DNA from: Pomacea canaliculata
Lineage: Eukaryota > Mollusca > Gastropoda > Architaenioglossa > Ampullariidae
Assembly (NCBI RefSeq): GCF_003073045.1
Contig: NC_037595.1
Span: 11,400,074 to 11,464,073 of the forward strand
DNA length: 64,000 nt
Direction: 5' to 3'
Translations under genes and position numbers: made by a program
The notes under the pieces: generated by a model
Database searches by the model: none
What the model was told of the DNA's origin: nothing
What the model saw: the letters and a program-made list of their open reading frames with translations, nothing else
Shown: in pieces, positions 970 to 33,955 of the stretch
Numbering within the stretch: the first letter of the stretch is position 1
Layout of the letters: the number at the start of each line of letters is the position of its first letter

Positions 970-3900
970 ATGGCGACTGGGCGATATCAAACTCCAGACT
1001 CCAGTGAGGTGCGTTTGTCCTGCAGTCTGTGCATGGAGTCCTATCGTGGTCGCACCCCCAAGCTGCTGCCATGTTTTCACACCTTCTGTCTGCCGTGTCT
1101 GGAAACCATGGCTGCTGCAGCAGCTTCCACAAAATCGTTCTCAGACGAAACAAACGCAGATGAAGACAAGAAGAGTGGAGAAGATGCCGTCATAGATGAG
1201 GAACAAAGCAAAACAAAGACCTTCCTGTGTCCGACGTGCCGTGCCTCCGTTGTTGTGCCTGAGGGTGGAGTAAGTCAGTTACAGGTGAGTCACTAACGGA
1301 AAAAAGAACACAAAGGCCTGGGCTAGCGTTGTCATGATTGCATATTCATTTGTTAATACTTACAGGTTCTGTCAGACTGATTCTTACCTTCAGCCCACTT
1401 TCTCAAGGTTAAAAATTTCTTCAGGTGAGTTGGCATGAGACAATTTAAGATGAGACCGTTCTAGGTGAATCAGATCCATGGCAGTCAACAAAATGCAGTG
1501 CCCTGATTATTTGAAACAATGTTGTCCTAAAGCAAATTCTAAAATAAGGTTTTGTTTTTAAAGAATAAAGAATAAAAGGGATGTAGATAAATGATCACAT
1601 AGGCAAGAAAACAATGTTGATTTATTGTAGGGTTCTGCTTAAAGAATTCATACCCTGTCACTATAAAAACATTTTTTATTGATGATTTATGTACATTTAA
1701 GCGCGTAATTAATACTTAATAAAGAAAAAAAGGAGTGTAATCTTTAATCGATATAAAAGAACTTTGTTCATCACAAAGATAAACAACTAGATTGCTAAGT
1801 TTGGATATCTTTCAGACCAACTTCTACGTGGACTTTAATGACTCGTCAGATGTGACTCTACCTGTGGAGTGTGACACGTGTGAGGACGGCAGCCGCGAGA
1901 CAGCGACACACGAGTGCGGAGACTGTCGTCACAAGATGTGCTCCCGATGCAGTCGTCTGCACGCCATGTTTGCTAAGGGTCATCGCGTGCGACCCCTGGA
2001 GGCCGGTGTTACTGGCAAGGCCACCTCCAGAGTCGTGAAGACAAGAGAGTGCCCGAGTCACGCTGGCCAATCGCTGTGCTTCCACTGTCGTCAGTGTGAC
2101 GTCAGCATCTGCCTGCACTGTAAGCTGACGTCACACGAAGGTCACGCCACAGAAGATTTTATGGCGGCTGTCACGCGAGCCAAAGGAGAGGTGACCAGAC
2201 TTATGGTGACTGCAAACCAGCAGGTGAGTGGTTCCAACCAAATAAAAAAAAATAAAATAAAAAAATAAAAAAATTAAATAAATAAAAGAATGAAATAAAA
2301 TCTTTAATTGTGTTCCTGTGTGTGCTACTTCTGTCTAGATCCAAGTGCTAGAAGCTGTACTGGGTCGTTTGGAGCGTGACACGCTAGAGTTATCCCGCCA
2401 GAAACAGGAAATGACGTCAAACGTGACTTCCAAATACGAAGCGTTGGTGGCGTGGGCGACTCGTGCACGTGACGAGGCGCTGGAGGAGATGGAGTGTGTG
2501 CAGCGTGCAGCACTGAAGGAGATGGAGGCCGAGCGGATTGTTGCGCGTGACACCAAACAGCTGCTGTCTCGCCTCGTGACGCGTGCGGCCTCTTCCTGTC
2601 ACGCCGACGCCGACGCCGACATCGTTCTTCACAAATCAGAGCTGCAGGCGGCGCTGCTGGACGACGACGCTCTCACCCGATACCGTCAACGGGGAAACAA
2701 GGAGGGTCACGTGACCTTTTTCACCTGCAGGTCAGACGACAAAGCCGTGCAGCTCGACCAGGTGAGAGACTTCGTGGGCAGACAGGAAGGACAGGACCAG
2801 GACAAGCAGGACAAGATGGCGGTGATGTCAATGAGAGAACTCTCAGAAAAAGCTGTGACGATGACCAAGTCAATGGAGGATTTGGGGATGAACATCACTA
2901 GAATGATAGGTATGTAGAAGGAATATTGCTGTGTGCGACATAGGTCTAAATTTTGAAATGAAATAACTTACATCTTGTACTTAAATCAGTATTTTCAGTG
3001 ACCTTCATATATTGTCAAAGTGACTTTGATATCTTAGAGAGCTGTAGCAATGACTAAGGAACTCAATGATTTGAAGATGAACACGATCACGATGCTTTAA
3101 AAGACCAAGTCCTTACAAGAGAGACAAATGACAAATAACAAATCCTTATCTGTGAGGGTAACAGAATAAGCAAAATTTATTCTTCTTTACATCTAGCCAT
3201 CGATCTTAGAAATAAACTTTATTGCTACAAAGACACAACAATAAAAAAGAAAAAAAAATACTCGTGTAGTACTGTAAAATTGGACGAATACAATGCCTCA
3301 GTGTTATGACCATATACATTGAAACTTAAGACAAATAATGTATAGCCATAGTCAGTCTCTATCGGTGATCTCGACGTCTTCTTAAAGTGACTGACTCCCA
3401 GTGGACCAATGGTACTTTGTGATGTTGTTGTTGTTGTTAATAATATTACAACTAGCTGTAAACTACCTTATAGGCACTATAAACTATACACGCACAACAC
3501 AACTCATTCCTTTACGCACACACGCACGGAATTCTTACGGATGTAATATTTTCCACTAACTCGTTTTATCACATGTCACTGTTGTCTTCTAACAGAAAAT
3601 GCGATAAGGCCGGTGTCATTCAGAGTACGGCGAAGTGTAAACATCAATGTGACGGCAGGAAATACTGTGATGTTCGATGTGGTCGACTTCAACGAAGGTG
3701 GAGGCTATGACACAGCCACTGGTGTCTTCACAGCCCCCGTCACTGGAACTTACATCTTTGTAGCCAACTTGTATAACCAGGTGACTGCAAGTGGCTGTGG
3801 CTACTGCTCTCTCTCCATAGACAGTAAGATTATGAATTATATGAACATCTCAAACAACGTTGGTATGATCCACGATATTGTCAGCCTTAAGACCGGCCAG

Positions 3901-4002
3901 AAAGTGTCATTAGTACCAAACACACAGTTCACATTAAACAAAAATGAGGGTTACACATTTTACACCGGTGCTCTGCTGTGTGCCACCCCAGGCACTGAGT
4001 GA
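970..4002 (+). CDS. TRIM-C1q protein, copy A (RING, B-box 1, B-box 2, coiled coil, C1q)
   Basis: Four exons: 970-1284, 1816-2223, 2339-2909 and 3596-4002. All introns are GT-AG, in phases 0, 0 and 1. They join to 566 aa. RING: C18-x2-C21, C35-x-H37-x2-C40-x2-C43, then C87-x2-C90 after a 43-residue Ala/Asp/Glu/Lys-rich insert. B-box 1 uses C124/C127, C139/C142, C147/C150 and later His. B-box 2 uses C184/H187, C196/C199, C204/C207, H212/H215. Residues 242-431 form a charged helical coiled coil with a Asp-Ala-Asp run. Residues about 435-566 are a C1q domain with the hallmark NEGGGYD and TGVFTAPVTGTY and a final FYTGALLC strand. RING/B-box proteins are normally E3 ubiquitin ligases that dimerise through the coiled coil. 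C1q modules bind ligands in molluscan immunity. No signal peptide or collagen repeat is present, so an intracellular sensor-ligase is inferred. The start matches copies B and E (MATGR). The nearest AATAAA downstream is at 4867. Confidence 0.88.
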
Positions 4003-4089
4003 AGTCAGTGAACACACACAATGTGCCAACATCAACATTCTGGCACTGTAACATGTCTGTAAATACAGAAACTGTTTATTACCTGTGAT

Positions 4090-5245
4090 CTGCAGAAAGA
4101 CATGTCTCAACCTTCAGTTCATAACCTAAAACGAACAATTTCACACCTGCTGACAGACTTACAAAAGTAACCGCTGATACTCGTTTCTCAAACAATTTCC
4201 ACAATCCCTTGTGGCCAATAGTATTCTTCTTTGAAACACGTGACGTCACTGACGTCTGCTTTGGTCACAAGTAAAGCGTCAGCTTACATAAGGCGTTGTC
4301 ATAGCAACCTGCTGACTTTTACACACACAGACGTCTCCCCTTTATTTGGTCAGGCATCCGACAATTCGATGTTTAAATATTTCATGCAAATATAACCCAC
4401 TTGTTGTGCCAGAGTTCTTGGACTTAAGATGCTTAAGCAAAGTTAACTATAGTACGTGAAATTTATTTCCATGTGTTTAGAATTAAAATTATTTTAATTA
4501 ACATACCGATCACCTATCTTGATTTTACAGTCTTTCAAAATTAAGTAAACGAAATATCTATTTTGCCTGAAATGATGTCTAGTATTTCCTTCATATTTGA
4601 TTATCTTGTGTCATATCAAATGTTACAGAAAGAAAATGACAAGAAAATGACTAAGAAATACTGTGTTTCTTTGATAAGGGAGATAATTTTTCTCCATACG
4701 ATTTTTTTTTCATGGTTACTGTTCTTGGTCGATTTTGCTCCTAATTGACTTTTGTAAAGGTTTTCTCATTTCCTTAATTGTAAAGATTTGAACATTAATG
4801 ATAAACGAATGAATTTATCTGTAGTCAGTTAAAAGTTTAGGTACAACATTTAAATATTTTGCCTCAAATAAAAGCAAATGAAGCAAATCCAAGACTGACA
4901 GTTTTAATACGGTTTTGTCACGACTTTGGAAAGAGAGAATGCAAGAAAGGATGAGTAATACGGACACTATTTAAATAATTTTGGACCTGTAATATTAAAG
5001 TGACAAATTACCACTAAAGGCCCATCGTTTAAAGAAGATCGGACACCATACTCGTTGTCTCTTAAATAACTCATTTTAATTTTTATTTCTCTTTTTAACA
5101 TACCTGCACTATTCTCACTAGTCTCACTACCTGGGTCGAGTAATTTACCACAAAGAGACAAACGAACGTTAGAGGCAGTAGCACGAACTCGTTGATTGTT
5201 GAGAAAACCAGCATGACAATGAAACAGTTTTCCCCATTGCTTTCG
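4090..5245 (+). repeat. Array intergenic repeat, first copy (left part)
   Basis: This flank downstream of copy A aligns by eye with 11150-12250 and 12840-13600. Shared landmarks are a TCATATTTGATTATCTTGTG segment, an ACCTGGGTCGAGTAATTTACC segment broken by substitutions, and a run ending in CATGACAATG. The right half of the same unit resumes at about 6497, after roughly 1.25 kb of inserted mobile DNA. The unit includes the promoter region of copy B, so it marks the period of the tandem gene duplication. No coding frame is conserved between the copies. Confidence 0.7.
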
Positions 5246-5317
5246 TTTCATTTCTTCGTCCCTCGACTGGGATCGGTCGTTGGTCGCTGGGGTGAGCACA
5301 TGGATACAGGTAGCAGA

Positions 5318-5545
5318 CTACAAGGCCCTCCACTCACAGGACGATAAGTTCTTCAAGTTCGTAAGCCAGATCTTCCTCTCCTCTTCGCGGCGTCGGACCT
5401 TATCCAAAGAACTTTGAATAACAGTATTCGACAAAGTGTCCTGTCGGGTCACGTGGCCAAACGAGAGCAGCAGTCGCCGCTTGACTGTTTCGACTGTTGC
5501 AGCCACGTGACGTAGCACACTGTTAGCGGCGCCCGTTGATCGCAG
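5318..5545 (-). mobile_element. LINE (non-LTR retrotransposon) reverse-transcriptase C-terminal fragment
   Basis: Read on the minus strand, the frame carries the conserved post-RT tail of LINE polyproteins. It has a LLSFGHVTRQDTL segment followed by a basic KVRRREEERK run and a Trp (the usual layout is FGHVxRxD, then RRRGR, then a W). Only the extreme 3' end is left. The reading frame continues upstream into the neighbouring hAT-like element, which is coincidental. It sits in a stretch missing from the paralogous intergenic copy at 12.8-13.9 kb, so it inserted after the duplication. Confidence 0.55.
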
Positions 5546-5568
5546 GTGCAAATCACGTATTTTGCTAG

Positions 5569-6001
5569 CAGAGATGCACAACCTACGGCCCGCGGGCCAT
5601 ATCCGGCCCGCGAAACTTCTGCCCACAGTGCAGGAAATCGGCATGTTAGTAATAAAAGAAAACCTTAAAAAAACGAAAAAAAAAAAAAAAAGGAAGAAGA
5701 AGTATTTATCCCCACGTAGGGGCGTTTCCCAATCTTTTTTCAATGGACGAACATTTCTATTCAGTGCTCTGACTTGGTGTCTCTACGATGCAGCCGGACA
5801 TTCAGAAGTTGGTTTCGGGAAAACAACTTCAAATATCCCACTAATTAGTACATAATTAATGGTAAGTACAACTTGTTTCTAATAAAAAATGGTATCTGCT
5901 CTATTTTTTTTTCCTTTTTGTATTTTTGCGGTGAAGTGGCCCGCGACACGGCTGTCCGAAATGGATATGGCCCGCAGGCCAAAAAAGGTTGGGCATCACT
6001 G
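5569..6001. mobile_element. Non-autonomous hAT-like DNA transposon
   Basis: The two ends are imperfect inverted repeats of about 40 bases. The left end begins CAGAGATGCACAACCT and continues into GGCCCGCGGGCCATATCC. The right end, read in reverse complement, begins CAGTGATGCCCAACCT and continues into GGCCTGCGGGCCATATCC. Ends of the form CAGnGATGnnCAACC are typical of hAT superfamily elements. I see no convincing 8-bp target duplication (flanks TTTGCTAG and AATTAAAG), so the edges may have decayed or the element may be nested. No transposase is encoded. Confidence 0.6.
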
Positions 6002-6496
6002 AATTAAAGGATTCGTTTAGGAAGCTGAAATGTACAGGTTAGGTTTAAATCTCCTATATGTCATATCTGCAAACAGACACAAACCATTCATGGTGGTCTT
6101 TAAATACCCACCCCTGTCCACACGAGTGAGCAAGGCACGAATCGCATCCACTTCGAGGACCCACGATTTCCATGCTTTCCACGAGGGAGAACACAGGGGC
6201 AACTCTACACATGTCACCCCACTCTACATGCCCTCACCATGATATTCTTTACATATTCCATCCTCTTTCCTGGATCAACCGTACAGGCAGACATATAGAG
6301 CCGTCATTAGTCATAACCGTAAAGACGTTGCCCGGTTATTTCACTACCTCATGATAAATACCCTAGCTTGAACGTATCACACACGCAGACCCTTATTATA
6401 AGTGTTCACTAGCCCATGACCGGGATTACTCTAGTTCGCTTTCCTCCCTGTGAACTGAAACAAACTCATGTCAGTTGGCTTCGTGTACACGACAGT
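6002..6496. other. Inserted sequence of unknown origin
   Basis: This stretch lies between the hAT-like element and the point where homology to the other intergenic copies resumes. It is therefore part of the roughly 1.25 kb absent from the copy at 13.58-13.63 kb. I see no coding potential, terminal repeat or tail that identifies it. Confidence 0.35.
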
Positions 6497-6924
6497 GTGT
6501 GTGCTAAGCATCCGGTAAAGGGTGAGACCGTTGGTCCATGCGATTTGTGAAGGCGAGATAACATACAGTACGTGGTAGACGATCTTGGCTGAATGAATGT
6601 TTGTAACTTAATCGACTTCCCTTCCCTCCACCCGAGAGAGACGCAGTGTGGAAAGTGTGACAGTCGATACCCCGTGTGCAGCGTTACCTCTTGTGTAGTA
6701 ACTGTCACTGCGCATGTCTGAGTCTGCTTGTGCTTGTCACAAGGGATTTTACATTTTCCTTTGTACTGCCGTTCCCGAGTAGTTGTGGTTACACTTGCTT
6801 GAACAGGCCTGCCCGACAATACGGGAATCAGAATCATCGTTTCATTTGTATCGTTTTCAACTATTAATTGTTACAAGTTTACCACATTTAAGGACAGGCA
6901 GGGGGTTTCAATTACTACATACAA
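6497..6924 (+). promoter_or_regulatory. 5' flank of copy B, promoter-bearing half of the array intergenic repeat
   Basis: The sequence up to the ATG of copy B is duplicated at 12285-12505 and 13610-13935. Conserved pieces include CATGTCTGAGTCTGC, CACAAGGGATTTTACATTTT and CCCGAGTAGTTG. The GGGATTTTAC at 6743-6752 is retained in the 13862-13871 copy and loosely resembles an NF-kB/Relish-type site. No canonical TATA box is evident. Promoter function is inferred from position and duplication, not from a recognised core promoter. Confidence 0.4.
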
Positions 6925-9900
6925 ATGGCGACTGGACGACATGACAAGCGGGGCTCCGATTTGCGTTTGTCCTGCAGTCTGTGCATGGAGTCCTATCGTG
7001 GTCGCACTCCCAAGCTGCTGCCATGTTTTCACACCTTCTGTCTGTCGTGTCTGGAGAACATCGTCGTCACCGCAACGTCCAAGAAATCAGCTTCACACGC
7101 AGACGACAGTCCAGTCAAAGACACAAAGAAAACGTGTGAAGAGAACAAGCAGAACATAGAAGTTACTGAGAAGGAAACAAATCCTGAACAAAAGAAAGAA
7201 GACAAAAATGATGATAGTGGAGAGGAGGAAGAAGACAAGGAAGTGACGTTTCAGTGTCCTACATGCCGTGTCTCTATACCTGTCCCCGCAGGTGGAGTGA
7301 GTCAGTTTCAGGTGAGTCACACGAAGATCTACTTTGTCCGTTTATGACCTTCCTTCAGTTTCTCCCAAGTTGTATCCTGCTATAAGTTAACGTATGAAGT
7401 GGTAACCAAGTATTATTGTAAGATTCTGCAGCAAAGAATATTGATCAAAGTTTAACCACAAAGTTTCCAGAATCTTACCCTTATACTTGTTGTGGCAAAA
7501 ACATGATAACATTTAATCAAACCTCTTCCAAGTCTTGTTGCTTTATTTATTCTATCCTCCAAGCCACTCTCTTCTCTCTCTCTCTTTCTTCCTCTTAAAT
7601 ATTTCATTTTATTTTTGCTCGCTTTAAGGACTAAATTTTTTAAGCTTCTGTTCAACAAAACAATTGGAGACCCGCAAAGAAGATAACGAGGAACACAGTG
7701 GTGCTCTATTGAATTACGAGTCCTGTATGTTTGCAAAGTACACTGTGAACTACACCTTGTACATCCATTACCTACAGTGTTAATAACTTCTCTCATTCCA
7801 CGCTTTTATACTCTTGCATTGAAAATACAGAGTTACTAAAAAAGACATAAATGTTTATTCTACATTTTTGGACTCTTGTCAAGTTACCAAAAACAACAGA
7901 GAAAAATATCTTTACTCAGTTTGAATACTAATAGAGGAACTACACTTGTAACCAAAAAGGATCACTACAAAACTCATAAAACTTTCGTCTTCCTATTTTT
8001 GCATTGTTTTTCAGTCAATGTTTAATTTTTGTAGGATCTTAAAGATTAATCCTATTCATCATTTATCTTTTATTAACAACAATTTAAAAGATTTAGCTTA
8101 TTCATCTATTTCCTTTCCAGAAAAATTTTCTAGCGTAAAGTGTTAGCATCACGCCATCTATAACCTTGACATGTACGTGTAATCATGTGTGTCAATATTG
8201 CTACAACATTTTATACTCATGCATACTCCTTTCCCTGACAAATGCTCTTCTATTTTTATTATTAATACCTTTTTCGGTCCTGACATTGATCTGTTTTCAT
8301 ATCAGTTAAAAATTAAATAAATATGTGCACCCAAAGGTAACCCTTATCTTGAACACTTTTGTAGCAATAACATGAAGAGGTTCTTAATCTTAAACCTCAT
8401 GTGTTTGGTCATACTTTATCGATTTGGATATAATTTATATTTTGTGAAATAATTTACTTTGTACCCTAACTCTATCATAAAAGGAAGCAACAACGATAGC
8501 AACATTTTGCTAAAGTAAATAAATATTACATCTAGAGAGCAGGCAGACCAAGTGTCCATCTCACCTATTTCAGACCAACTTCTACTTGGACTGTGATGAT
8601 GAACCTGACGCCAGTCTAGACCTACCTGTGGAGTGTGACACGTGTGAGGACGGCAGCCGCGAGACAGCGACACATGAGTGCGGAGACTGTCGTCACAAGA
8701 TGTGCTCCCGATGCAGTCGTCTGCACGCCATCCATGCGCAAGGTCATCACGTGCGACCTCTCGATGGCGGAGCTGCTGGCAAGGCCACCTCCAGAGTCAT
8801 GAAGACAAGAGAGTGCCCGAGTCACGCTGGCCAATCGCTGTGTTTCCACTGTCGTCAGTGTGACGTCAGCATCTGCCTGCACTGTAAGCTGACGTCACAC
8901 GAAGGTCACGCTACAGAAGATTTTATGGCGGCTGTCACACGAGCCAAAGGAGAGGTGAACAGACTTATTGTGACTGCAAACCAGCAGGTGAGTCTGTTCT
9001 ATAACAGTTTTAGATAATCTTATTAACATTATCTGACTATTCTAATCTGACCTCTTGACATGGGAAATATTTGAATGTCTTTCTTGTGTCTAGATACAAG
9101 TGTTAGAGGCTGTACTGGGTCGTCTGGAGCGCGACACGCTAGAGTTATCCCGACAGAAGCAGGAAATGTTGTCAAACGTGACGTCACGATACGAAGCCTT
9201 GGTGACGTGGGTGACCCGCGCACGTGACGAGGCGCTAGAGGAGTTGGAGTGTGTGCAGCGTGCAGCACTGAAGGAGATGGAGGCGGAGCGGATTGTGGCG
9301 CGTGACACCAAACAGCTGCTGTCTCGCCTCGTGACGCGTGCGGCCTCTTCCTGTCACACCGACGCCGACGCCGACATCGTGCTGCACAAATCAGAGCTGC
9401 AGGCGGCGCTGCTAGACGACGACGCGCTCACCCGATACCGTCAACGGGGCAACAAGGAGGGTCACGTGACCTTCTTTAGGTGCAGGTCAGACGACAAGGC
9501 CGTGCAGCTAGACCAGGTACGAGACTTCGTGGGCAGACAAGAGGGACAGGACCAGGACAAGCAGAACAAGATGGTGGTGATGTCCATAAGAGAACTCTCA
9601 GAGAACGTTTTGGCAATGATCCAGTCACTGGAGGATTCGAAGATCAACACGAGGACCATGATACGTAAGAGGAACAAATGTTGAAGTCACAATATTTCTT
9701 AGATTCTTTGATAGGCTGTCTGTGAGTATGATATGATTGAAGAAAAAGTATAAGTAGGATTGATGGAAATCTTCTTCAGTGGTTTTAATGTATTGATGCA
9801 CTACAGCGCAAATTATAGAACAGAGCTCATTACGATATTTTTTATGTCCACTAATGTTAAAGCTTGATTATCTACTAAGTTTTGTGTATTCTATCTGTCA

Positions 9901-10571
9901 ATCTGGCTGTCATCAATGTTTTTGTTTCAAACCTCTGTCTTTGTACAAAATTTGGTGGTGGTTACCAAAACTTTGAGCAGTATTATCTTGATTTAAGCTC
10001 TTTACAATCTTTAGTGCATTATATATTGTAATATAATAAACGCATGTATTAATCACACATACACACAAGGAAACGCACAAACACGCTTGAATTTTTAGCA
10101 AATAAAACGCATATCTTCCCCGTGAACAAAAAAAGTATTTTACATGTCTTTTTTCTTCTGACAGAAAATGCAACAAGACTGGTTTCATTTAGGGTACGTC
10201 TGAGTGCAGATACTACTGTGACGGAAGAAAACCCTGTGATATTCGATGTGGTCGACTTCAACGAAGGTGGAGGCTATGATACAGCCACTGGTGTCTTCAC
10301 GGCCCCCATCACTGGAACTTACATCTTTGTAGCCAACTTGTTTAACCAGCATTATGCGAGTGGCTGTGGCTACATCTCTCTCTCCATAGACAGTAAGAAC
10401 ATCAATTATATGAACGTTTCAAACAAAGTTGGCATGATCCACGATATTGTCAGCCTTAAGACCGGCCAGAAAGTGTCTTTAGTACCAAACACGCAGTTCA
10501 CACTATGCAATTATGGGTTACACACATTTTACACTGGTGCTCTGCTGTGCGCCAACCCAGGCACTGAATGA
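6925..10571 (+). CDS. TRIM-C1q protein, copy B (RING, B-box 1, B-box 2, coiled coil, C1q)
   Basis: Exons are 6925-7311, 8574-8987, 9094-9664 and 10165-10571, all bounded by GT-AG, in phases 0, 0 and 1. They give 592 aa. RING: C17-x2-C20, C34-x-H36-x2-C39-x2-C42, then C111-x2-C114. The insert between the third and fourth cysteine pairs is 68 residues, highly acidic (a GEEEEDKE run) and longer than in copy A. The exon-2 B-boxes and exon-3 coiled coil (190 aa plus a split codon) are nearly identical to copy A. The terminal C1q exon begins NATRLVSFRVRL and ends FYTGALLC. Intron 1 (1262 bp) and intron 3 (500 bp) differ strongly from those of copy A, so exons are conserved far better than introns. 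Role as for copy A: a predicted cytoplasmic E3-like protein with a C1q recognition module. Confidence 0.88.
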
Positions 10572-12839: not shown

Positions 12840-13935
12840 AAATTTTTGTAAAAGTTCACATTTACTCATCTTGACAATGAAAGACAAATTGATTTTATAT
12901 TCTATCCAAATTAAATAAATGGAATACCTGTTTTGTCTGAAATTGTCTAGTATTTCTTTCATATTTGATTATCTTGTGTCATATCAAATGTTACAGCTAG
13001 AAAATGACGAGGCAATACTGCGACTTTTGGATAAGGGAGATAACTTTTCTCCATACGATTTTACTTTTCGGGATTACTGTTCTTGGTCGATTTTGCTCCT
13101 CATTGATTTTTGTAATGGATTCTTTCATTTCTTAAATTCTATATATTTTAATATTTACGATAAACGAATAAATGCATCTGTAGTCAGTTAAAGTTAATAT
13201 ACAACACTTAAACACATTGACACAAAAGCAAATGAAGCAAATCCCAGACTGACAGTTTTAATTCTGCTTTGCTCATTACTTTGGAAAGAGAATAAAGTAA
13301 AGGATTAATAATACTGACATTACAATTAATTATTACATCAAAATTTGGACCTTTGATACTAAAGTGACAAATTACCACCAAAGATCCTTTGTTTAAATAA
13401 CATCGGACACCCAGCTCGTTGTATCTTAATTAACTCATTTTAATTTTTATTTCTCTTTTAAGCATACTTGCACTATTTAGTTTCGCTACCTGGGTTGAGT
13501 AATTTACCACAAGTAGACAAACGGATGTTACATGCAGGTGCTCCTTTGGGAGCGCGAACTGGTTGACTGATGAGAATCCAAGCATGACAATGCAACAGTT
13601 TTACCGACATTGCGCGTGCTTCATCCGGTAAAGAGTAGGACCGTTGATCCCTACTGTTTGTGAAGGCGAGATAACTTTCAGAGTACGTGCTAGCAGAACT
13701 GGGCTCACTGCATGTTTGAGAACTTAATCTACTGCCACCCGAGAGGACGCAGTGTGTAAAAGGTGACAGTTGATACCCCGTGTACAGCGTTCCACCTTGT
13801 GTCGTAAGTCTTCCAAAAAAGTATCAGTGCTCATGTCTGAGTCTGCAGGTACTTGTCACAAGGGATTTTACATTTTCCTTACTACTTCTGCTCCCGAGTA
13901 GTTGAGGGTACACTTGCTTGAAAAAAGCCTACCCG
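12840..13935 (+). repeat. Array intergenic repeat, third copy
   Basis: This matches 4400-5245 and 6497-6800, without the mobile elements found in the first copy. It is the cleanest version of the ancestral spacer. It ends in CTTGCTTGAAAAAAGCCTAC, then joins directly to B-box coding sequence of pseudogene C at a short CCGGTG overlap. Confidence 0.65.
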
Positions 13936-13940
13936 GTGCT

Positions 13941-14473
13941 GGTGGCAAGGCCACCTCCAGAGTCGTTAAGACAAGAGAGTGCCCGAGTCACGCTGGCCAA
14001 TCGCTGTATTTCCACTGTCCTCAGTGTGACGTCAGCATCTGCCTACACTGTAAGGTGACGTCACTAACAGAAAGTGCAACAAGACTGGTTTCATTTAGAG
14101 TACGTCTGAGAGCACATACTGTTGTGACGGCAGCAAATCCTGTGATATTCGATGTGGTCGACTTAACGAAGTTGGAGGCTATGATACAGCCACTGGTGTC
14201 TTCACGGCCCCCGTCACTGGAACTTACATCTTTGTAGCCAACTTGTATATCAAGTACTTTTGTGACTATGGCTACTGCTCTCTCACCATAGTAAGATTAT
14301 CAATTATATGAACATTTCCAAGTGCGTTGGCATGATCCACGATATTGTCAGTCATAAGACCAGCCAGAAAGTGTCATTAGTACCAACCACGCCGTTTAAT
14401 TAAATTATACAGTAATGAGTTATACCCATTTCACACTGGTGCTCTGCTGTACACCAACGAGACCATTGAATGA
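13941..14473 (+). pseudogene. TRIM-C1q pseudogene, copy C (B-box 2 fused directly to C1q)
   Basis: Promoter-type sequence runs straight into the second half of exon 2 (GGCAAGGCCACCTCC, then TRECPSHAGQSL). It stops after CKVTS and continues with the last bases of intron 3 (CTAACAG) and the C1q exon. The RING, B-box 1, coiled coil and all introns between are gone, so two deletions are needed. The frame stays open across the B-box/C1q junction. It then breaks at about 14163, where one base of the GTCGACTTCAACG motif is missing, with a further gap near 14290 and a stop near 14400. The C1q start (ATRLVSFRVRL) is B-like. No start codon is in frame. It is presumed non-functional. Confidence 0.8.
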
Positions 14474-14696: not shown

Positions 14697-16006
14697 AAAC
14701 TAAATATCCGAACGACCAGCTTTCGCGTATGTATCTATTACATTTCAGTGTTGTTTGTTCAAGCACAGGCTGTGTATCAGACACTTCAATTCTATTTAAC
14801 ATTTTCAAACTTGTGGATATTTACTAAACAGAGTTCCCAAAATTTCCACCTACGGTTCGGATGATGTCCAGAGACGTTCATGCTTACACACACATCTAGA
14901 CTTCCATGAATAATAGTCCTCGAAACTTCGTAAACTGTGGCCACTGGGGTTGACGAGGTCAGTACTCCAGGCTGACGTCGAACGTATCCTTGTCCCAGAG
15001 GAACTGATGTCGACTACACTTTCCAACTTCCGAACAGTAGATGCTGACTGGGTAGACACACCTGACTGCTGACGTTCCTCTTCCAGTCGTCTTCCTTCTT
15101 TCGATAATTCCTTCTCCTCCTTGGTAATTCCTCATCCAGGTAATTCCTGAAATTTATACTTGTCTAATGAATATTCGTATTGAACTTTATCACTATTACA
15201 ACAACAACCACAACTCTTCCATCATCATTACTTCTAACCAAATATTACATCATTTCACACCATTCTTTGCGGACAGGGAGATGGCCAAAGCAAGAAAAGA
15301 CAACTTATCCCATACCTTGACTAGGCAAGGAATTAATCCGATTCCAAGATCTCTTCTACTCAAAATTCGCTGCAGTCTCTCCAGTTCGAAGACTGGCGTG
15401 GAAATGACCAAACTAAATATTTTTCCCATACACCTGGGGTTCAGTGAACCTGTCGCTCGCTCCTGTACGCTTTTCTCGAACGTCTTCACTTCCACGCATT
15501 CCATCTAGTGCACGGGTAAGGGCGAGAATCACTGCCTACCAACAGACAGAGGTGTCAACCCACACCCCCACACCCACCCGTTTCTAACAGCACATTCGTC
15601 CAAACACGTGACACACCGCTTGATGTTGTTACTACTGGCGGATCTCAAACTCTCTGTTACTTTGTACAGCCTCCAGTTTTATCACTTGATTGATTTGCAT
15701 TGAAAACAAGTAGCTTTGTTTACATACAACGAGTAACGAGAGTGTTATTACGCTGAATAGTAATTTCTGTAATCGGAGATCAAATCGACAAGGCTGTAGT
15801 CCAGTTGACTCGGTGCTGTGACCAATTGATAAATGGTCAATGATAGATGGGGAGCCTGTTGGCTCCATACAGAGCCCCAGTGTCAAAAGAACCAAATGAT
15901 CAGTCAACCAGGGATTCCACGACATCTTATAAACACGGACAGGACAACACAGACAGCGGTTCACGTGCTCTAGCCCAGATGTCAACAAATCACGTGCAGT
16001 CCGCAG
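14697..16006 (+). repeat. Duplicated block X, left copy (pairs with 25102-26676)
   Basis: The two blocks share long near-identical stretches in direct orientation, for example CCAGCTTTCGCGTATGTATC versus CCAGCTTTCGCATATGTATC at the start and CACGTGCAGTCCGCAG at the end. Open frames inside are not conserved. This copy lacks the SINE found in the right copy and so serves as its empty site. The nature of the block is unknown; it could be an old mobile element or plain segmental duplication. Confidence 0.65.
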
Positions 16007-22439: not shown

Positions 22440-23090
22440 TCAACTAACAGGTCTTAAAGTATTATTTCGATTTATTTATATTTCATAACGCTCCTTACGC
22501 TTTAAACCATATCTATCTTAAAATTAGGGAATAACCCCAATAGTGGCAGGGGAATATAACTTTTCTGTCACGAAACTGTCTTTTCATTTTCATTTATTTA
22601 TTTGAGTTTGGAGGCAGTTATGGGAAGGGGGAAGAATACGTTGTTTGACCGAAATTGTGAAGCCTACGCCTACCTCCCCTTTCGTGTTGCCTTCACACTT
22701 TTATACACACCAACAACTGTATACCAGAAGCGGATAGGAAGGTCTCTGGCTAAGTGTGCAAAACTGAGATCAACACCTACTTTATTAAAGTAGCTAAACA
22801 TTTAAAACGTATTTAAATTCTAAACTAATAAACGCCACATATATTGATTAACAGTCAAAGTAGTGCTTCATTTTATTATTCGGCTCATAACATCATAAAG
22901 GCTACATGAAATCTTAATATTTTATAGAACTGTGCAGTTCTGACGATGGTTTTAATTTGTTTGAACTCTAAATGCGACACTAATGCTTCCCTGTAACTCT
23001 CAATAGATGTCACTTAACGAAAATATTATTTAAAAAAGAAAAACACGAATGGAGAGCAAGTAGAGCAAGTGTACATCTCACCTATTTCAG
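22440..23090 (+). repeat. Intron-1-type sequence of pseudogene D (paralogue of 30040-30477 plus 31352-31555)
   Basis: This aligns with the intron 1 of copy E on both sides of the LINE in that intron. Examples are GGGAATAACCCCAATAGTGG versus GGGAATAACTCCAATGCTGG, and the shared CATCTCACCTATTTCAG acceptor. It shows the uninterrupted target site of that LINE (about 22889-22899). No RING exon is found upstream; it appears to have been replaced by the duplicated block. Confidence 0.65.
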
Positions 23091-24924
23091 ACCAATTTCT
23101 ACGTGGACTTTGATGACAATTGTTAAGTTACTCTAAAGTAAATATAACATCTGTATTTGAACTATCCATGCAGATATGCTGTACACATACATATTTTATT
23201 TATGCTTGCTTTACACATTTATGTAACAGTGATGTTTCCGAAGAAATAGGCTTTGCATATTTACGTTCAAATGCCTATAAAGTGTATGAGTTTTTTTCGG
23301 CAGATGGCCTTATTCCATGTTGTTGAGATTTTGGAAGAAGCCAAAGAAGGTTTAAAGGGGTTAGTAGCTGTAATTCCAGACAGCTGGCTGGGACGATTTA
23401 AAGATTCCACTGGTCGCAATTACTTGTGCAACTGGCCACCAAAATCTGTTAAAGCAGAATCTGAGAGAGACTTAAAGAAATGTTGGAGGTGGAGAGTGAT
23501 GACACAAATACTCCTACTGCATCATAAAGGACACGGATAACTCCAATTAGATTTCGGTCTGTTTTTATTTTCTCTACCATATGTTGCCATACTCTTTGCC
23601 GCCAGTTGTGAGCCCTAGGGTATCTGAAAGTAGAAGCTTTCAGCAAATTAGCAGCATTTCACCTCTCCCTTCACGGTTCCAACACCCTTTGTCTGCAAGC
23701 ACAGGGACCCACAACTCCTTGGAAGGTAATTTAAAGTCATTTTGTTTATAATCATTTTAACATTTTGTTTGTTTTTACCTTCTACCAAGTATTTTGGACA
23801 GTGTTTTTGTGAAATATAACCAGAAGGGCAAAATCCCAGGCTTCTGTTGCCATAGTGAAACAAAATGAAATAAATATGGTTCACTATTTTACATGTTTTT
23901 TGCTCTTGCGTTCGTTGGTTCCAGGTACATTAAAGCAAGCTCTACAACATATAATGTCTTCTCTGGAAGAGCTGAAAACCGACATGAAAGATGTAAAAAA
24001 TAGGTTTGCACAGAGGGAGTGCCAACCCCAAGAAAAGGAAAATACATGTGGGGAGCTGCCAGTGCCACTTTACATATCTATATAATCTGCTTGTAGCTTT
24101 CTTTATTTCACTTTATATTCTGGATTTTAAGGTCAGTGACCTATAATTAAGTGATTATTTTTATGCAGACCTCATATTCTTATATTTGTTCTATTTTTAG
24201 ATGCTGCAAGAAAAATGTGCCCTGCAGCTACAGAAGTAGAAGTGCAGGCATTGATCGCAAGCTGGCTAACTGGTGCACGAGATCGAGACAACGGAAGACG
24301 AGAAAGGGCACCCGAGCACAGACGATTAAAATCATTATTAAATAGTTCTGGGGAGGGGAATGCCTTGGGGGACATGTAAAGGTGTACATTTGTCTGTAAA
24401 ATTCTTGCACATAAACTGTCAATTTAAAAAAAAATTGCATACATTTAATTATAAAAGCTTAATATAATCTTAAAATTATCTGAGTATGCTAATCTGACCT
24501 CTAGAGGTGGGAAATATTTGAATGTCTTTCTCGTATCTAGATCGAAGTTCTCGAGGCTGTACTGGGTCGTCTGGAGTGTGACACGCTAGAGTTATCCCGA
24601 CAGAAACAGGAAATGACGTCAAACGTGACGTCACGATACAAAGCTTTGGTGAGGTGGGCGACTCGCGTACGTGAAGAGGGGATGGATGAGATGGAGTGCG
24701 TGCAGCGTGCAGCACTGAAGGAGATGGAGGCCGAGAGGATTGTGGCGAGAGACACCAAACAGCTGCTGTCTCGCCTCGTGACGCGTGAGGCGCGCTGCTG
24801 CACGACGATGCGCTCATTCAATACGTCAACGGGGGAACAAGGAGGGTCACCTGCAGGTCAGACGACAAAGCCGTGCAGCTAGACCAGGTACGAGACTTCG
24901 TGGGGAGACAGGAAGGACAGGACC
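23091..24924 (+). pseudogene. TRIM-C1q pseudogene, copy D
   Basis: An intact CTATTTCAG acceptor leads into only 28 bases of exon 2 (ACCAATTTCTACGTGGAC...), then unrelated DNA begins. Homology returns at about 24466 with the end of intron 2 (B-like, GGGAAATATTTGAATGTCTTT). It continues with exon 3 from 24541 (coiled coil, MECVQRAALKEME retained). Exon 3 loses roughly 70 bases after LLSRLVTRE, which shifts the frame to a stop, and the homology ends near 24924. The RING, both B-boxes and C1q are absent. The copy cannot make a TRIM-C1q protein. Confidence 0.8.
23262..24376 (+). pseudogene. Broken gene fragment inserted into copy D (DUF4806-like start, tentative)
   Basis: The sequence replacing most of exon 2 of copy D holds its own decayed exon series. 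The first (about 23290-23500) reads FHVVEILEEAKEGL, later VIPDSWLGRF and LCNWPP, the style of the N-terminal region of DUF4806-type animal proteins (short VVEF, PxxW, CxWPP motifs). A frameshift and stop follow near 23500. Next come an exon-like piece ending GAAG/GTAATT at about 23728, one opening after TTCCAG at about 23926 (ALQHIMSSLEELKTDMKDV, helical), and one opening after TTTTTAG at about 24201 (TEVEVQALIASWLTGARDRD). Family assignment is from memory of the motif style only. It may be a captured or transposon-borne gene. Confidence 0.35.
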
Positions 24925-25101: not shown

Positions 25102-26676
25102 AAACTAAATATCCAAACGACCAGCTTTCGCATATGTATCTATTACATTTGAGTGCTGTTTACTCAAGTACAGGCAGTAAGCAGCGGTCTCTATCATTGT
25201 ATCAGACACTTCAGTTCTATTCAACAGCTTCAAACCTGTGGACATTAGAAGAGTTCCCAAAATCTGCACCTAAGGTTCGGATGATGTCCAGAGACGTTCA
25301 CGCACATCTACACTTCCATGAATAATCGTCCTCGAAACTTCGTAAGCTGTAGCCACTGGGGTTGACGAGGTCAGTACTCCAGGCTGACGTTGAACGTATC
25401 CCTGTCCCAGAATACACTTTCCAACTTCCGAACAGTAGATGCTGACTGGGCAGACACACCTGACTGCTGACGATACAACTTCAATAACCAGGAACAGCGG
25501 GTGTTGACTGGGCAGATACACCTAGCTGCTGACGTTCCTCTTCCAATCGTCTTCCTTCTTTCGATAATTCCTTCTCCTCCTAGGTAATTCCTCTTCCAGG
25601 TAATTCCTGAAATGTTTACTTTTGTAATGAATATTCGTATTGAGCTTTATCGCTATTACAACAACAACAACTCTTTCATCATCATCACTTCTAACCAAAT
25701 ATTACATCATTTCACACCATTCTTTCGCGGAAAGGGAGATAGCCAAAGCAAGTAAAACAACTTATCCCATACCTTGACTAGGCAAGGAATTAATCCGATT
25801 CCAAGATCTCTTCTACTCAAAATTCGCTGCCGTCTCTCCACTTCGAATACTTGCGTGGAAATGACCAAACTAAATATTTTCCCCATACACCTGGGGTTCA
25901 GTGAACCTTTCGCTCGTTCATGCACGTTTTCTCTAACGTCCTCACTTCCAATCATTCCATCTAGTGCACGGGTAAGGGCGAGAATCACTGCCTACCAACA
26001 GACAGAGGTGTAAACCCCCACCCCAACCCCCACCCGTTCCTAACAGCACATTCGTCCAAACACGTGACGCACCGCTTGATGTTGTTACTCCTAGCGGATC
26101 TCAAACTCTCTGTTACTTTGTACAGCGTTCAGTTTTACTTGATAACTATCACTTGATTGATTTGCATTGAAAACAAGTACATACTGTTTACATACAACGA
26201 GTAACGAGAGTGTTATTATGCTGAATAATAATTTCTGTAATCGGAGATCAAATCGACTAAGCTATATAGTCCAATTGACTCGGGCTGTGACCAATGGATA
26301 AATGGTCAAATGATAGATGGGGAGCCTGCTGGCTCCATACAGAGTCCCAGTGTCAAAAGAACGGCCCGGTGGCGCAACGGTTAGCGCCTGTCACCAATAC
26401 AGTGAAGGTTGGCTGCCCTGAGTTCATTTCTCGTCTCGGGCATGCTGTTCTTTCTCTGCACGTGGCATCTGTTCACAGGGCTGGCTGCTTGCCGTAATAT
26501 AGCCTTAGTTGCTGGCACGGCGTAAAACACCAATTCCCCCCCCCCCCCAGTGTCAAAAGAACCAACTAATCAGTCAACCAGGGATTCCACGACATCCTAT
26601 AAACACGGACGGGACAGCACAGACAGCGGCTCACGTGCTCTAGCCCGGATGTCAACAAATCACGTGCAGTCCGCAG
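25102..26676 (+). repeat. Duplicated block X, right copy, carrying a SINE
   Basis: Direct paralogue of 14697-16006. The two are similar across about 1.3 kb. This copy additionally contains a 183-bp tRNA-like SINE plus its target duplication (26346-26562). It is otherwise non-coding, and the frames open in one copy are interrupted in the other. Confidence 0.65.
26363..26545 (+). mobile_element. tRNA-derived SINE with a 17-bp target-site duplication
   Basis: The element opens GGCCCGGTGGCGCAACGGTT, which fits an RNA polymerase III A box (TGGCnnAACGG). A B-box-like GAGTTCATTTCTC follows about 45 bases later. It ends GGCACGGCGTAAAACACC followed by a run of Cs instead of a poly(A) tail. CCCAGTGTCAAAAGAAC flanks it on both sides (26346-26362 and 26546-26562). 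The paralogous block at 15883-15900 has that motif only once, which is an empty site. Transcription would be from the internal promoter, and mobilisation would depend on a LINE partner. Confidence 0.85.
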
Positions 26677-28522: not shown

Positions 28523-31500
28523 ATGGCGACTGGACGACATTACAGCTCAGACTTGCGTTTGTCCTGCAGTCTGTGCATGGAGTCCTATCGTGGTCGCACT
28601 CCCAAGCTGCTGCCTTGTTTTCACACTTTCTGTCTGCCGTGTCTGGAGAAATCGTCGTCACCGCAACGTCCAAGAAATCGGCTTCACACGCAGACGACAG
28701 TCCAGTCAAAGAAATGAAAGAAACATGCGAAGAGGACAAGCAGAGCGAAGATGATTCTGAGGAGAAAACGACAAAACCTGAGCAAGAGAAAGACGATGGC
28801 GATGATAATACTTATAGGAAAGGATGGAGAGGAGAAAAAGTGACATTTCAGTGTCCTACATGTCGTGTCCTTGTTCCTGTCCCTGCTGGGGGAGTGATCC
28901 AGTTTCAGGTAAGTCACAAAAGTTTTCCCTGTCGGCTTAATGCTACTTTCGGTTTCTCGTGTTTCTAGGTATTGCGCTGCTTTCACACGTTAGCAATACA
29001 ACGTACATAGGTGGTGATAAAGAAATAGTCTGAGAACCTACAACACAGTTTTCATCAATGTTCATCGAAAGATTTTCCAGGATCCTGTCCAGAAACCTTG
29101 AATCAGAATCTTGTTATGGCGAACACCCGATAGCATTTTATCAAAAGTCTACGAAGTTAAATATTTCTTTCTTCATTCATATCCCCTTGTCTCTTGGGTT
29201 CTTTCTATATATATCCTTGTAAGACTTTGTTCTCTTTGAATGACTGCTGTTTTTGAAAAAAAAAACTTATCATTTTATTGTAGAAGCCTACAAAATCTTT
29301 ACAAATCACAAAATGACACGAAATTAAAGGGACATCCCGAAGTAATTCTTAAACTGTCGTACAATGCCCACGTTTTGCCCCAATATTTTGACGGTAGGGT
29401 TTTTTATTTTTCATTTGTGAAGCAGCCTTAAGCCTGAGTAGCTGAGTAATGTATAGAGCATATCAAACTGAAGGTCCCCCAAGGGCCGCATGTGTCACAT
29501 TTGTGTTGTCACGAGTGCCGGAGGTGTGTTTGCAAAGGGCCGCATGCCTCCCACGTTGACATACCTGGTATAGAAGACTCGAGCCTACTTTCCGCTTCGC
29601 TTTAGCAATGACTGTCGATATGCACAGAAGTTAACGGGTATCATTTTCGTTTTAGCGAACTACGAGTAGCAATCTGGTGCGTTTGTCAAGTACACTGTAA
29701 ATAACAGTGCGAGCCCATTGCGTAAAGTGTAATCAATTCGTGGTATTCATTTAAATCTTGTACTTATATAGTGTACATTGTGAATATTGATTTTCTCACA
29801 GGACTAGGTGTTGATAGTATATTTCTAGGACTTGCTACCCTAACATTGCAGACAAAAATCTCTCCATTTATTTGAATCCTATTGCAGGCACTAACCTTAA
29901 CAAAAATTAAACGAAATTTAACATTGTCTTTAATGGAATTTTGCACAAAATTCTTTAAGATTAATCCTAGTTATTGTTATTGCGTTAAACACAATCAGTA
30001 AATGTGACATTTACCAATTACAAGATAATTGCTTAAAGTATCATTTCGATTTATTTATATTTTGTAACTTCCCTTACGCTGTTAACCACATCAATCATAA
30101 AATTAGGGAATAACTCCAATGCTGGCAGGTCAATAAACCGTTGCTGTCACGAAACTGTCTTTTTATTTTATTTATTTACGTTTTGAAGGCAGGGATTGTA
30201 AGAGAGTTGATACGTTGTTTGACCAAAATTGTCAAGCCTACGTCCACCTCCCCTTTCGTGTTGCCTTTACACTTTTATACACACCAACAACTGTATACTA
30301 GAAGCGGATGGGAGAATCACTGGTTAAGTATGCAAAACTGAAGGTCAACACCTACTTTTTTAAAAAGTAACTGAACATTTATAATGCATTTTTATTTTCA
30401 ACTTATAAAAGTCATATATATTGATTTACAGTCAAAGTAGTGCTTCATTTTATTATTTGACTCATAACATCATAAAGATTAGATTACTGCCCGATATGCC
30501 GGTCGGCACGAAGGGCAGCGACAAATGTCCTCCACTTTTGCCTGTCCTGGGCTAGCTTCCCCACAGTACCCCAGCTGAGGTTTAGGGTCTTCATGTCTGC
30601 CTCCACAGTTCGTCGCCAGGTGTTCTTGGGCCGGCCTCGCTTGCGTTTTCCTTCTGGCGTCCAGTGTAAGGCAGTTTTTATGATGGAGTTGCTCCCGCCT
30701 CTGATGACGTGACCAATCCAGCGCCATCGCTTCTTCATCAGGATGGTGGCCATGCTCTCCTGCCCACACTGGGTAAGTAGTTCTTCGTTGGAGATTGTCC
30801 TTGGCCAGAAGATGCCCAGGATTCTTCGCAGGCTTTTGGTGTGGAAGACTGACAGTTTGTTGAGGTCGCTGTCAGTCATTCGCCAGCATTCCGAGCCATA
30901 CAGTAGAGTGGACATGACCAGACTCTGGTAAAGTCTCAGCTTGGTATTGATGCTGTACCGTGTCGACTTCCAGATGTTGCTTAGCTACAGAAGATGCCCC
31001 TGCCTTTGCTCAGTCTGCTCTGGATGTCACGGCGTGCTCCTCCATCCTGCTTGACCACGCTGCCCAAGTAGGTGAAGCTTTCAACCATCGGCAGGTCTTC
31101 TCCCTCTACGCTGATCGGTGTTGTATTGGTGGTGTTCAGGGTCATCACTTCTGTCTTTGTCCGGCTGATGTGCAGTCCGACGTTCTGCGCAAAGGTGTTC
31201 AGGCGAGTAGTCTTCTCCTGCATGTGTCGGTGGGTGTGTGACAGCAGGGCCAGGTCGTCGGCAAAGTCTAGGTCTTCTAAGTTCGTGGAGAGTGTCCATC
31301 TTATGCCCCTTGGTTCATCTTCCGTTGTGTGGCGCATTACCCATACCCATTACATCATAAAGGCGACACGACATTTTAATATTTGATAGAGCTGTGCAGT
31401 TCCGACGATGGCTTCAATTGTTTCTATTCTAAATGCGACACCAATGCTTCCCTATAACTCTCCATGACTGTCACTTTACGAAAACATTATTTTAAAAAAG

Positions 31501-33955
31501 GAAAAAAAAATGGATGGAGAACAAGTAGATCAAGTGTACATCTCACCTATTTCAGACCAATTTCTACGTGGACTTTGATGACAAACCTGACGCCAGTCTA
31601 GACCTACCTGTAGAGTGTGACACGTGTGAGGACGGCAGCCGCGAGACAGCGACACACGAGTGCGGAGACTGTCGTCACAAGATGTGCTCACGATGCAGTC
31701 GTCTGCACGCCATGTTTGCCAAGGGCCATCGCGTGCGATCCCTTGATGCCCGTGATGTTAGCATGTCGTCTGCCCCCATAGTCGTGAAGACAAGAGAGTG
31801 CCCGAGTCACGCTGGCCAATCGCTGTGCTTCCACTGTCGTCAATGTGACGTCAGCATCTGCCTGCACTGTAAGCTGACGTCACACGAAGGTCACGCCACA
31901 GAAGATTTTATGGCGGCTGTCACACGAGCCAAAGGAGAGGTGACCAGACTTATGGTGACTGCAAACCAACAGGTCAGTCAGCTAAATAAAAACTGCTTGT
32001 TGACATTTTATTTCTTAATGGCTTTTTTTTTACCTCCACACAGGTTTAATCTTTTTGATGTTTTTGTGTCTAGATCCAAGTGCTAGAAGCTGTGCTTGGT
32101 AGTTTGGAGCGAGATTCAATGGAGTTATCCCGCCAAAAACAGGAAATGACGTCAAACGTGACTTCCAAATACGAAGCGTTGGTGGCGTGGGCGACTCGTG
32201 CACGTGACGAGGCGCTGGAGGAGATGGAGTGCGTGCAGCGTGCAGCACTGAAGGAGATGGAGGCCGAGCGGATTGTTGCGCGAGACACCAAACAGCTGCT
32301 GTCTCGACTCGCGACGCGTGCGGCCTCTTCCTGTCACACCGACGCCGACGCCGACATCGTCCTGCACAAATCGGAGCTGCAGGCGGCGCTGCTGGACGAC
32401 GACGCTCTCACCCGATACCGTCAACGGGGCAACAAGGAGGGTCACGTGACCTTCTTTAGGTGCAGGTCAGACGACAAAGCCGTGCAGCTAGACCAGGTAC
32501 GAGACTTTGTGGGCAGACAAGAGGTTCAGGACCAGGACAAACAGGACAAGATGGTGGTGATGTCAATGAGAGAACTCTCAGAAAAAGCTGTGGCGATGAC
32601 GAAGTCAATGGAGGATTTGGGGATGAGCATGACTAGAATGATAGGTAATGTAGAAGGAATATTTGAGGATTCACATTGTTGTTGGAATGTTCAAATAGTT
32701 TATGTATGATTATTCTCAGCTAAATAGGAGATATATGTACAACCAATGCCACTAACTTTTAAATGTTATGCTCCTTTCTTTTGTGGATTTAAAATTTAAT
32801 GTTCTTAAAGAAGTTATAAATATTCATACGATAACAATACTCTAAAATGTGACGTGCATGTGAATCTTTCTATAGCATATTGTGTATGACATAGGATTAA
32901 CGTTTGAAATGAAATAACTTCCATCTTGTACTTCCAATCGGTATTTTCAGTAATCTTCATATGTTGTCAAAGTGACTTTGAGATCTTAGAGAGCTTTAGC
33001 AATGACTAAGGAACTGGATAATTTGAAGATGAACACGATCACGATGTATTACAAGAGCAATTCCTTACAAGAGAAACAAATGACATAAAACAAATCCTTA
33101 TCTATGAAGGTAAAAGAATAAGCAAAAGTTATTTTTCTTTACATGTAGCCATCGATCTTTAAAATAATATACTCATTACTATAAAGACACTAAAATAAAA
33201 CAAAAAAGAAAAATATACTGGTGTATTCAAAATTATACGCATACAATGACTCAATATTATGACCATATACATTGAAACTTCAGACAAATAATGTATAGCC
33301 ATAGTCAGTCTCTATCGGTGATCTTGACGTGTTGTTATAGTGACTCACTCCAGTGAGACCAATGGTATGTCGTGATATTGATAATAATACATCTAGCTAT
33401 AAACTACTCTATACGTACTATAAACTATATACGCACAGCACAACTCACTCCTTCACGCACACACACACACACACGGATTTCTTACGGATAAAATATTTTC
33501 CACTAATTCTTTTTATCACGTTTCACTGTTGTCTTCTAACAGAGAATGCGATAAGGCCGGTGTCATTTAGAGTACGCCTGAGTACACCTGTTAATGTGAC
33601 GGCAGGAAATCCTGTGATATTCGATGTGGTCGACTTCAACGAAGGTGGAGGCTATGACACAGCCACTGGTGTCTTCACGGCCCCCGTCAATGGAACTTAT
33701 GTCTTTGTAGCCAACTTGTATGTTCAGGGAGGCAATGGTTATGGCTATTTATCTCTATCTGTGAATGATAAATTAATGAATTTTATGAATGGTTCAAACA
33801 GCGTTGGCATGATGCACGATATTGTCAGTTTAAAAACCGGCCAGAAAGTATTGCTCATGCCAAACTCGACCTACACACTAAGCCATAATGAGCAGTACAC
33901 TTTTTACACAGGTGCTTTACTGTGTGCCAGCATAAGCAGTGATACCACAAGTTAA
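28523..33955 (+). CDS. TRIM-C1q protein, copy E, with exon 1 frameshift (probably broken)
   Basis: Exons are 28523-28908, 31556-31972, 32074-32644 and 33543-33955, with good GT-AG sites and the family phases. Exon 1 starts MATGRHYSSDLRLSCSLC. Compared with copy B it lacks one C near 28650 (GAGAAATCG versus GAGAACATCG), so the frame is lost after CLPCLE. It is 386 bases long, one short of a whole number of codons. The downstream frame is otherwise intact to CPTC and the donor. Exon 2 keeps both B-boxes, exon 3 (571 bp) the coiled coil. The C1q exon is the most diverged (LYVQGGNGYGYLSLSVNDKL) and ends SISSDTTS. Either this is a recent pseudogene or the base was lost in sequencing; about 595 aa would result if the frame were continuous. 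Intron 1 holds a LINE and a hAT relic. AATAAA lies at 34729. Confidence 0.75.
29459..29568. mobile_element. Short hAT-like relic in intron 1 of copy E
   Basis: The left end (CATATCAAACTGAAGG, then AAGGGCCGCATG) and the reverse complement of the right end (CAGGTATGTCAACG, then GCATGCGGCCCTTTG) are imperfect inverted repeats. They have the GGGCCGC core seen in short hAT elements. The flanks GTATAGAG and GTATAGAA differ at one position and could be an 8-bp target duplication. No coding capacity. Confidence 0.35.
30478..31351 (-). mobile_element. 5'-truncated LINE with an 11-bp target-site duplication
   Basis: On the minus strand the element encodes the end of a reverse transcriptase. It shows the FADDLALLSH catalytic-core motif at about 31270, FTYLGSVV, then after a frameshift near 30985 TLLYGSECW, RRWRWIGHVIRGG and GKRKRGRPKNTWRR, ending shortly before 30484. 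ACATCATAAAG borders both ends (30467-30477 and 31352-31362). The paralogous sequence at about 22889 has it once, uninterrupted. The 3' UTR is almost absent, and the element ends TAATCTAAT with no poly(A). It is dead because of truncation and frameshift. The clade cannot be fixed from this tail. Confidence 0.85.

Follow-up and report, generated by a model that had tools for sequence, protein, structure and literature searches.

C1q is known from textbooks as the recognition head that complement uses outside cells, and to our knowledge it is not among the recognised classes of TRIM C-terminal domains. The closest described systems are found among TRIM ligases, in Caprin-2 and in the C1qDC proteins of molluscs. 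TRIM2 and TRIM3 (class VII, TRIM-NHL) share a RING, B-box 2 and a coiled coil with the snail genes considered here, but carry filamin and NHL domains at the position that is occupied by C1q in the snail. They also differ from the two genes described below, which have two B-boxes (most distant paralogues that we read show one), and from the snail genes in general, which have a long insert or an intron inside the RING. TRIM21 and the other SPRY-TRIMs are likewise RING/B-box/coiled-coil ligases that end in a recognition domain, and the snail proteins would work in a like manner, although with C1q instead of PRY/SPRY; we know of no antibodies in molluscs. The coiled coils of TRIM proteins form antiparallel dimers (PMC9732051), and in mammals TRIM10 has been reported to bind C1q, which there is a separate extracellular protein (PMC12678476); these statements, like the others drawn from cited papers, refer to excerpts of their text.

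C1q domains form trimers, as reviewed in one excerpted source. Caprin-2 resembles the snail genes in carrying a C-terminal C1q domain on a cytoplasmic protein with a dimeric part, but it has HR1 and HR2 and no TRIM core, RING or B-box. Its HR1 region is dimeric and its C1q domain trimeric, and trimerisation of the latter matters for LRP5/6 phosphorylation and is needed for full receptor activation (PMC11480233, in part). A C-terminal fragment of Caprin-2 is bound by a Chlamydia inclusion protein (PMC4440618, in part).

Molluscan C1qDC proteins (sghC1q, C1q-like type II and cghC1q) share with the genes described here the C1q domain and tandem duplication, and the type II proteins also have a coiled coil ahead of C1q. 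Predicted cytoplasmic C1qDC forms have been reported in a clam. Unlike the genes described here, the molluscan proteins are described in the excerpted sources as secreted, membrane or C1q-only cytosolic forms or as having SUEL or Ig partners, and none of these sources describes a RING or B-box partner. A C1q expansion is reported in Ampullariidae, with tandem clusters of Pomacea canaliculata on chromosome 14 (PMC13336756). Less than a dozen C1qDC proteins are given for gastropods in the available text of PMC6835236, against the 114 C1q matches found here.

A fusion of RING/B-box with C1q was not found described in the searchable full-text literature, nor in the available text of PMC8382680, PMC9334734, PMC5549309, PMC8905726, PMC10672478, PMC3503706, PMC13336756, PMC11788884, PMC8476170 and PMC6835236. 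The word C1q is absent from the available text of PMC3503706, and 'trim' in that of PMC13336756 denotes the trimming of reads or alignments, not TRIM. The initial annotation, made from the DNA sequence, had known of no such described system, and this agrees with the literature that could be searched. Since subscription journals lie mostly beyond the reach of such a search, novelty is provisional, and automatic domain databases may already list the architecture.

Here we describe a 64,000-nt window of P. canaliculata contig NC_037595.1 (C6:11400074-11464073) and the genome-wide family to which its genes belong. We consider it probable that this family, which is expanded in the snail, encodes cytosolic TRIM-type RING ubiquitin ligases with C1q as a C-terminal, diversifying recognition domain.

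Structure of genes A and B

Genes A (970-4002) and B (6925-10571) each consist of four exons on the + strand, with open coding sequences of 566 and 592 aa, respectively. All six introns are GT-AG, the exon-end phases are 0, 0 and 1 in both genes, and exons 3 and 4 measure 571 and 407 nt in both. In gene A, exon 1 (970..1284, +) contains the start codon and the entire RING (zinc ligands at 1021-1239), exon 2 (1816..2223, +) contains B-box 1 (about 1870-1983) and B-box 2 (about 2050-2145), exon 3 (2339..2909, +) encodes the coiled coil and ends in phase 1, and exon 4 (3596..4002, +) encodes the C1q domain (about 3619-3975), followed by the stop. The order is the same in gene B: start codon and RING in exon 1 (6925..7311, +), both B-boxes in exon 2 (8574..8987, +), the coiled coil in exon 3 (9094..9664, +), again with a phase 1 end, and the C1q domain and stop in exon 4 (10165..10571, +).

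The features of a TRIM (RBCC) protein are present in both genes, namely an N-terminal RING, B-boxes after it and then a coiled coil; the C-terminal domain being C1q, the TRIM assignment is based on this core. Pfam recognises C1q (PF00386) in A and B at E values of 3.8e-9 and 1.3e-9 (37.3 and 38.8 bits against a curated cut-off of 23.7) and zf-RING_UBOX, over its cut-off, at 8.8e-7 and 1.2e-6. One B-box per protein, B-box 2, is matched by Pfam zf-B_box at E values of 7.8e-5 and 8.8e-5, with 23.2 and 23.0 bits, which is slightly below the 24.1-bit cut-off, and B-box 1 is identified from zinc-ligand spacing only. The coiled coil of A (residues 220-330) shows a hydrophobic periodicity that is equalled in 9 of 2000 shuffles, and it aligns with the coil of TRIM3. 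Among solved sequences, the core of A is closest to TRIM3 (chain 8amr, E 1.5e-16) and TRIM2, and its head is closest to C1q chains, EMILIN-1 and the cytoplasmic Caprin-2. The initial annotation had read both genes as a RING, two B-boxes and a coiled coil joined to a C1q domain, and this architecture holds, with open coding sequences.

The full set of RING zinc ligands (C3HC4) is found in both genes. Ligands 6 and 7 of a RING are usually separated by 4-48 residues. The gap is 43 residues in A, and in B it is filled by a 68-residue acidic/lysine-rich insert, so the RING of B, lying beyond the usual range, may be weakened. The insert in exon 1 of A and B occupies the site of an intron in distant paralogues (L012-L028), which suggests intron loss or exonisation.

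Secreted C1qDC proteins and complement C1q have a signal peptide and a collagen stalk (as in C1q-like type I), neither of which was found in A or B, in line with what the initial annotation had said. For the signal peptide, this refers to a simple hydropathy test of the first 45 residues, in which the best 15-mer scored 1.05 in A and 1.10 in B compared with 2.57 in L031, the signal-peptide-like start of another C1q gene in the same genome and the sole comparison for the test. For collagen, the translations contain no Gly-X-Y run by eye and give no Pfam collagen match.

Further copies in and beside the window

Searching the window with the A and B proteins revealed a third copy, C, and two relics. 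Copy C (28523-33955, +) is open in exons 2-4 and frameshifted in exon 1. Its RING exon (28523..28908, +) has 386 nt compared with 387 in B, a net one base short of whole codons relative to B, and its frame is broken. The B-box exon (31556..31972, +) is open, as are the coiled-coil exon (32074..32644, +; 571 nt, phase 1) and the C1q exon (33543..33955, +), the last up to the stop. Relic 1 (13935..14470, +) is a B-box piece joined directly to a C1q piece that is decayed and carries stops and frame changes, and relic 2 retains the start of exon 2 (23088..23135, +) and a truncated exon 3 with an internal deletion (24541..24924, +). Intron 3 is 86% identical between A and C over 673 aligned bases, with 238 further gap columns, and gives no useful alignment between A and B (51% over 368).

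Just upstream of the window, U2 is a third open gene of 592 aa, with an exon 3 of 571 nt that ends in phase 1, and the neighbouring copy U1 has a stop 21 nt ahead of its exon-3 donor. Thus, two of the five neighbouring copies U1, U2, A, B and C are damaged (U1 and C). Elsewhere, W2 has a stop in the B-box exon, and the core ORFs of V2 and Y1 are short, so broken copies are common.

Three other observations were made in the window. Two copies of a block of some 1.3 kb, 85-95% identical, occupy 14697-16006 and 25102-26676; each comes after a relic, a pattern that tandem segmental duplication would produce. Intron 1 of copy C contains a sequence (30500-31350, -) that by eye resembles reverse transcriptase. 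An ORF at 61094-61510 (+), in which a hydrophobic stretch comes after an internal start, might serve as first exon for a secreted or membrane protein.

The family across the genome

The genome searched comprises 440,159,624 bases in 24 contigs. PF00386 gave 114 exon-wise C1q matches at E ≤ 0.001, and a hand-made family RING query gave 86 matches. A pair was defined as a RING with its own same-strand C1q no more than 12 kb downstream and no other RING between. By this definition, 27 of the 114 C1q matches are paired with a family-type RING of their own, which lies 2.4-6.6 kb upstream; 22 of these loci are on C6, four on C3 (at two places) and one on C13. All but one of the best 24 RING matches (of 86) are paired. 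Within 12 kb, none of the 86 RINGs has a C1q on the opposite strand, and upstream of 18 there is a C1q on the same strand, which tandem clustering would produce. At the sequence level, 43 of the 114 C1q matches were read, and the other 71 (2 of 24 on C6 and 69 of 90 elsewhere) enter the pairing count only. This pairing on one strand led us to reject a chance adjacency of TRIM core and C1q. The initial annotation had spoken of a possible family on the strength of two genes, and that family now extends to copy C, the relics, U2 and the RING/C1q pairs of the whole genome.

The core of a C3 member, used as the query, gave 22 matches, 20 of which are followed by C1q within 6 kb. At the two exceptions, C3:29263609 and C6:17805470, the longer downstream ORFs contained no C1q when read by eye. 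The first of them is the core-like exon of L042 (C3:29258500-29263699), with no C1q seen in the next 5 kb. Conversely, seven C1q loci have no TRIM core in the 4.6-5.6 kb of upstream DNA that was searched. When the C13 RING served as the query, it found itself at rank 1 and 19 family RINGs, all on C6, at ranks 2-20, and the C3 members ranked among or below C2 TRIMs without C1q. The RING ends in CPTCR in 16 further cases, in a search whose pattern itself required CPTCR, and divergent ends are CPVC (L030 and L040), CPTCN (L039) and CPLCS (L022). A whole-genome B-box search, from which the best 150 of 375 candidates were taken with the window genes not among them, was not used for counts. Several tens of tandem RING/B-box exons at C2:24.19-24.57 Mb have no C1q match among them and represent another expanded TRIM cluster.

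A single origin of the TRIM-linked heads was considered but is not supported by a tree of 19 linked and 7 not-linked C1q rows, which needs two changes. In that tree, the linked heads are not resolved as one group, and 37% of bootstrap trees have one change. The second change arises because L002 falls among the linked rows. L002, L003, L005 and L007 were labelled as not linked from about 1.5 kb of upstream DNA; L002, when extended (L034), again showed no core, and the labels of the other three stay on that length.

One gene or two

The principal structural alternative is that the four exons are not one gene, that is, that exon 3 is the last of a TRIM gene and a separate secreted C1q gene comes next. 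Some features of the DNA would suit such an arrangement. If exon 3 is extended into intron 3, a stop is reached after a few codons, which would allow an isoform that lacks C1q. Under a loose definition, ATG-to-donor stretches of the right phase occur in intron 3 of A (two), B (one) and C (one); that at 3422-3542 in A is hydrophobic enough for a signal exon but has a poor donor, and no counterpart is listed in B or C. In copy C, moreover, exon 4 is preceded by one ATG in frame. In A and B, however, there is no such ATG. The junction is preserved in all three exon-3/exon-4 pairs of the window (A, B and C), and it is in phase 1 wherever it can be read well, including in U2 and in distant paralogues. 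In an automatic junction search, X1 and Y1 came out in phase 0 and X2 with an implausible donor, the core ORF there being broken or reading through; W2 and W6 had an acceptor off the expected domain start, V2 had no donor, and U1 and U2 were outside its scope. Taken with the 20 of 22 cores that are followed by C1q, the genome-wide pairing and the selection on exon 4 described below, the phase of the junction and the missing in-frame start of A and B make the separate secreted C1q genes envisaged by the initial annotation as a counter-case very improbable.

Divergence of head and core

For exon 4, dN/dS is 0.40 for A-B, 0.35 for A-C and 0.44 for B-C, below 1 at p ≤ 0.0011 in all three pairs (count-based Fisher test), which indicates that the C1q exon is maintained as protein; for exon 3, the values among the same copies are 0.12-0.21. 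Exons 2-4 of the window copies are under purifying selection. This selection and the fully open frames of A, B and U2 speak against the view that the window cluster is a set of decaying copies without function, which the damage to C, U1 and the two relics might otherwise favour and which we judge quite improbable.

The comparison was extended to 13 chosen genes in three groups (A, B, C, U1 and U2; V1, V3, V4 and W1; W3-W6). In 19 of the 22 paralogue pairs, which share genes and are not independent, dN/dS is higher in the C1q head than in the core; in the other three, the head is not faster. At one-sided p < 0.05, the excess is seen in nine of ten window-type pairs, in one of six V/W1 pairs and in none of six W pairs. 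The C1q values reach 1.00 in A-U1, 1.32 in V1-V3 and 1.45 in V1-V4, with bootstrap ranges that include 1. Positive selection on C1q was considered on this basis and is suggestive only, with dN/dS above 1 in 2 of 22 pairs.

These rates also bear on the notion that C1q is a mere oligomerisation head, gathering RINGs and having no ligand of its own. C1q domains do form trimers, and W3 and V1, the two distant members examined, carry an additional coiled coil of strong periodicity ahead of the head (as high in 0 of 2000 shuffles). A head of this kind would be expected to be about as constrained as the core, however, and the faster heads, with values near or above 1 in several pairs, render the notion improbable.

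Proposed mode of action and implications

What the family displays is a gene structure, a repeated same-strand order of RING, B-box, coiled coil and C1q, and a phase-1 junction. From this architecture we infer transcripts, ligase activity, a ligand and an immune role. The initial annotation had predicted cytosolic ligand capture coupled to ubiquitylation, and we find this plausible from the sequence. With the TRIM coils, Caprin-2 and TRIM10 as precedents, a cytosolic, self-assembling and ligand-triggered ligase is the most likely reading. The protein would stay in the cytosol, where its coiled coil would be expected to form antiparallel dimers as in other TRIMs, and its heads would trimerise like those of C1q and Caprin-2. 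By combining two-fold with three-fold contacts, the protein could build large assemblies, and the binding of a multivalent ligand might then cluster the RINGs and activate them to ubiquitylate either the ligand or bound targets.

The tandem, diversified C1q repertoire suggests recognition of changing targets, which would most likely be microbial or damaged-self surfaces inside cells. As a tentative and more specific proposal, which may well not hold, gastropods could have a form of cell-autonomous recognition by diversified cytosolic C1q-headed ligases, in which lattices of trimeric heads and dimeric coils assemble themselves on repetitive targets inside the cell (e.g., microbes in the cytosol) and cover these with ubiquitin, with each paralogue owing its specificity to its variable C1q loops.

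A rather unlikely alternative is an intracellular scaffold like Caprin-2, whose C1q trimer would gather a receptor tail or RNP of the host in signalling or development, with ubiquitylation as a form of regulation and no pathogen sensing. The solved sequences nearest to the head include Caprin-2, whose C1q trimer takes part in receptor activation (PMC11480233, in part); the paired members on C13 and at C3:29.25 Mb have no other pair at their places, as a fixed function would have it. Tandem clusters with birth and death, relics and fast C1q heads nevertheless fit changing targets better than one fixed partner.

The reading of the family as C1q-headed recognition ligases is directly testable, in that the heads should bind and the RINGs should ubiquitylate. 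If it is true, C1q would be the business end of a multigene family of TRIM ligases and thereby a new C-terminal class of TRIM. The family would be a candidate intracellular counterpart to the mollusc's secreted C1q repertoire, and some of the C1q genes counted in the P. canaliculata genome would encode proteins that are not secreted.
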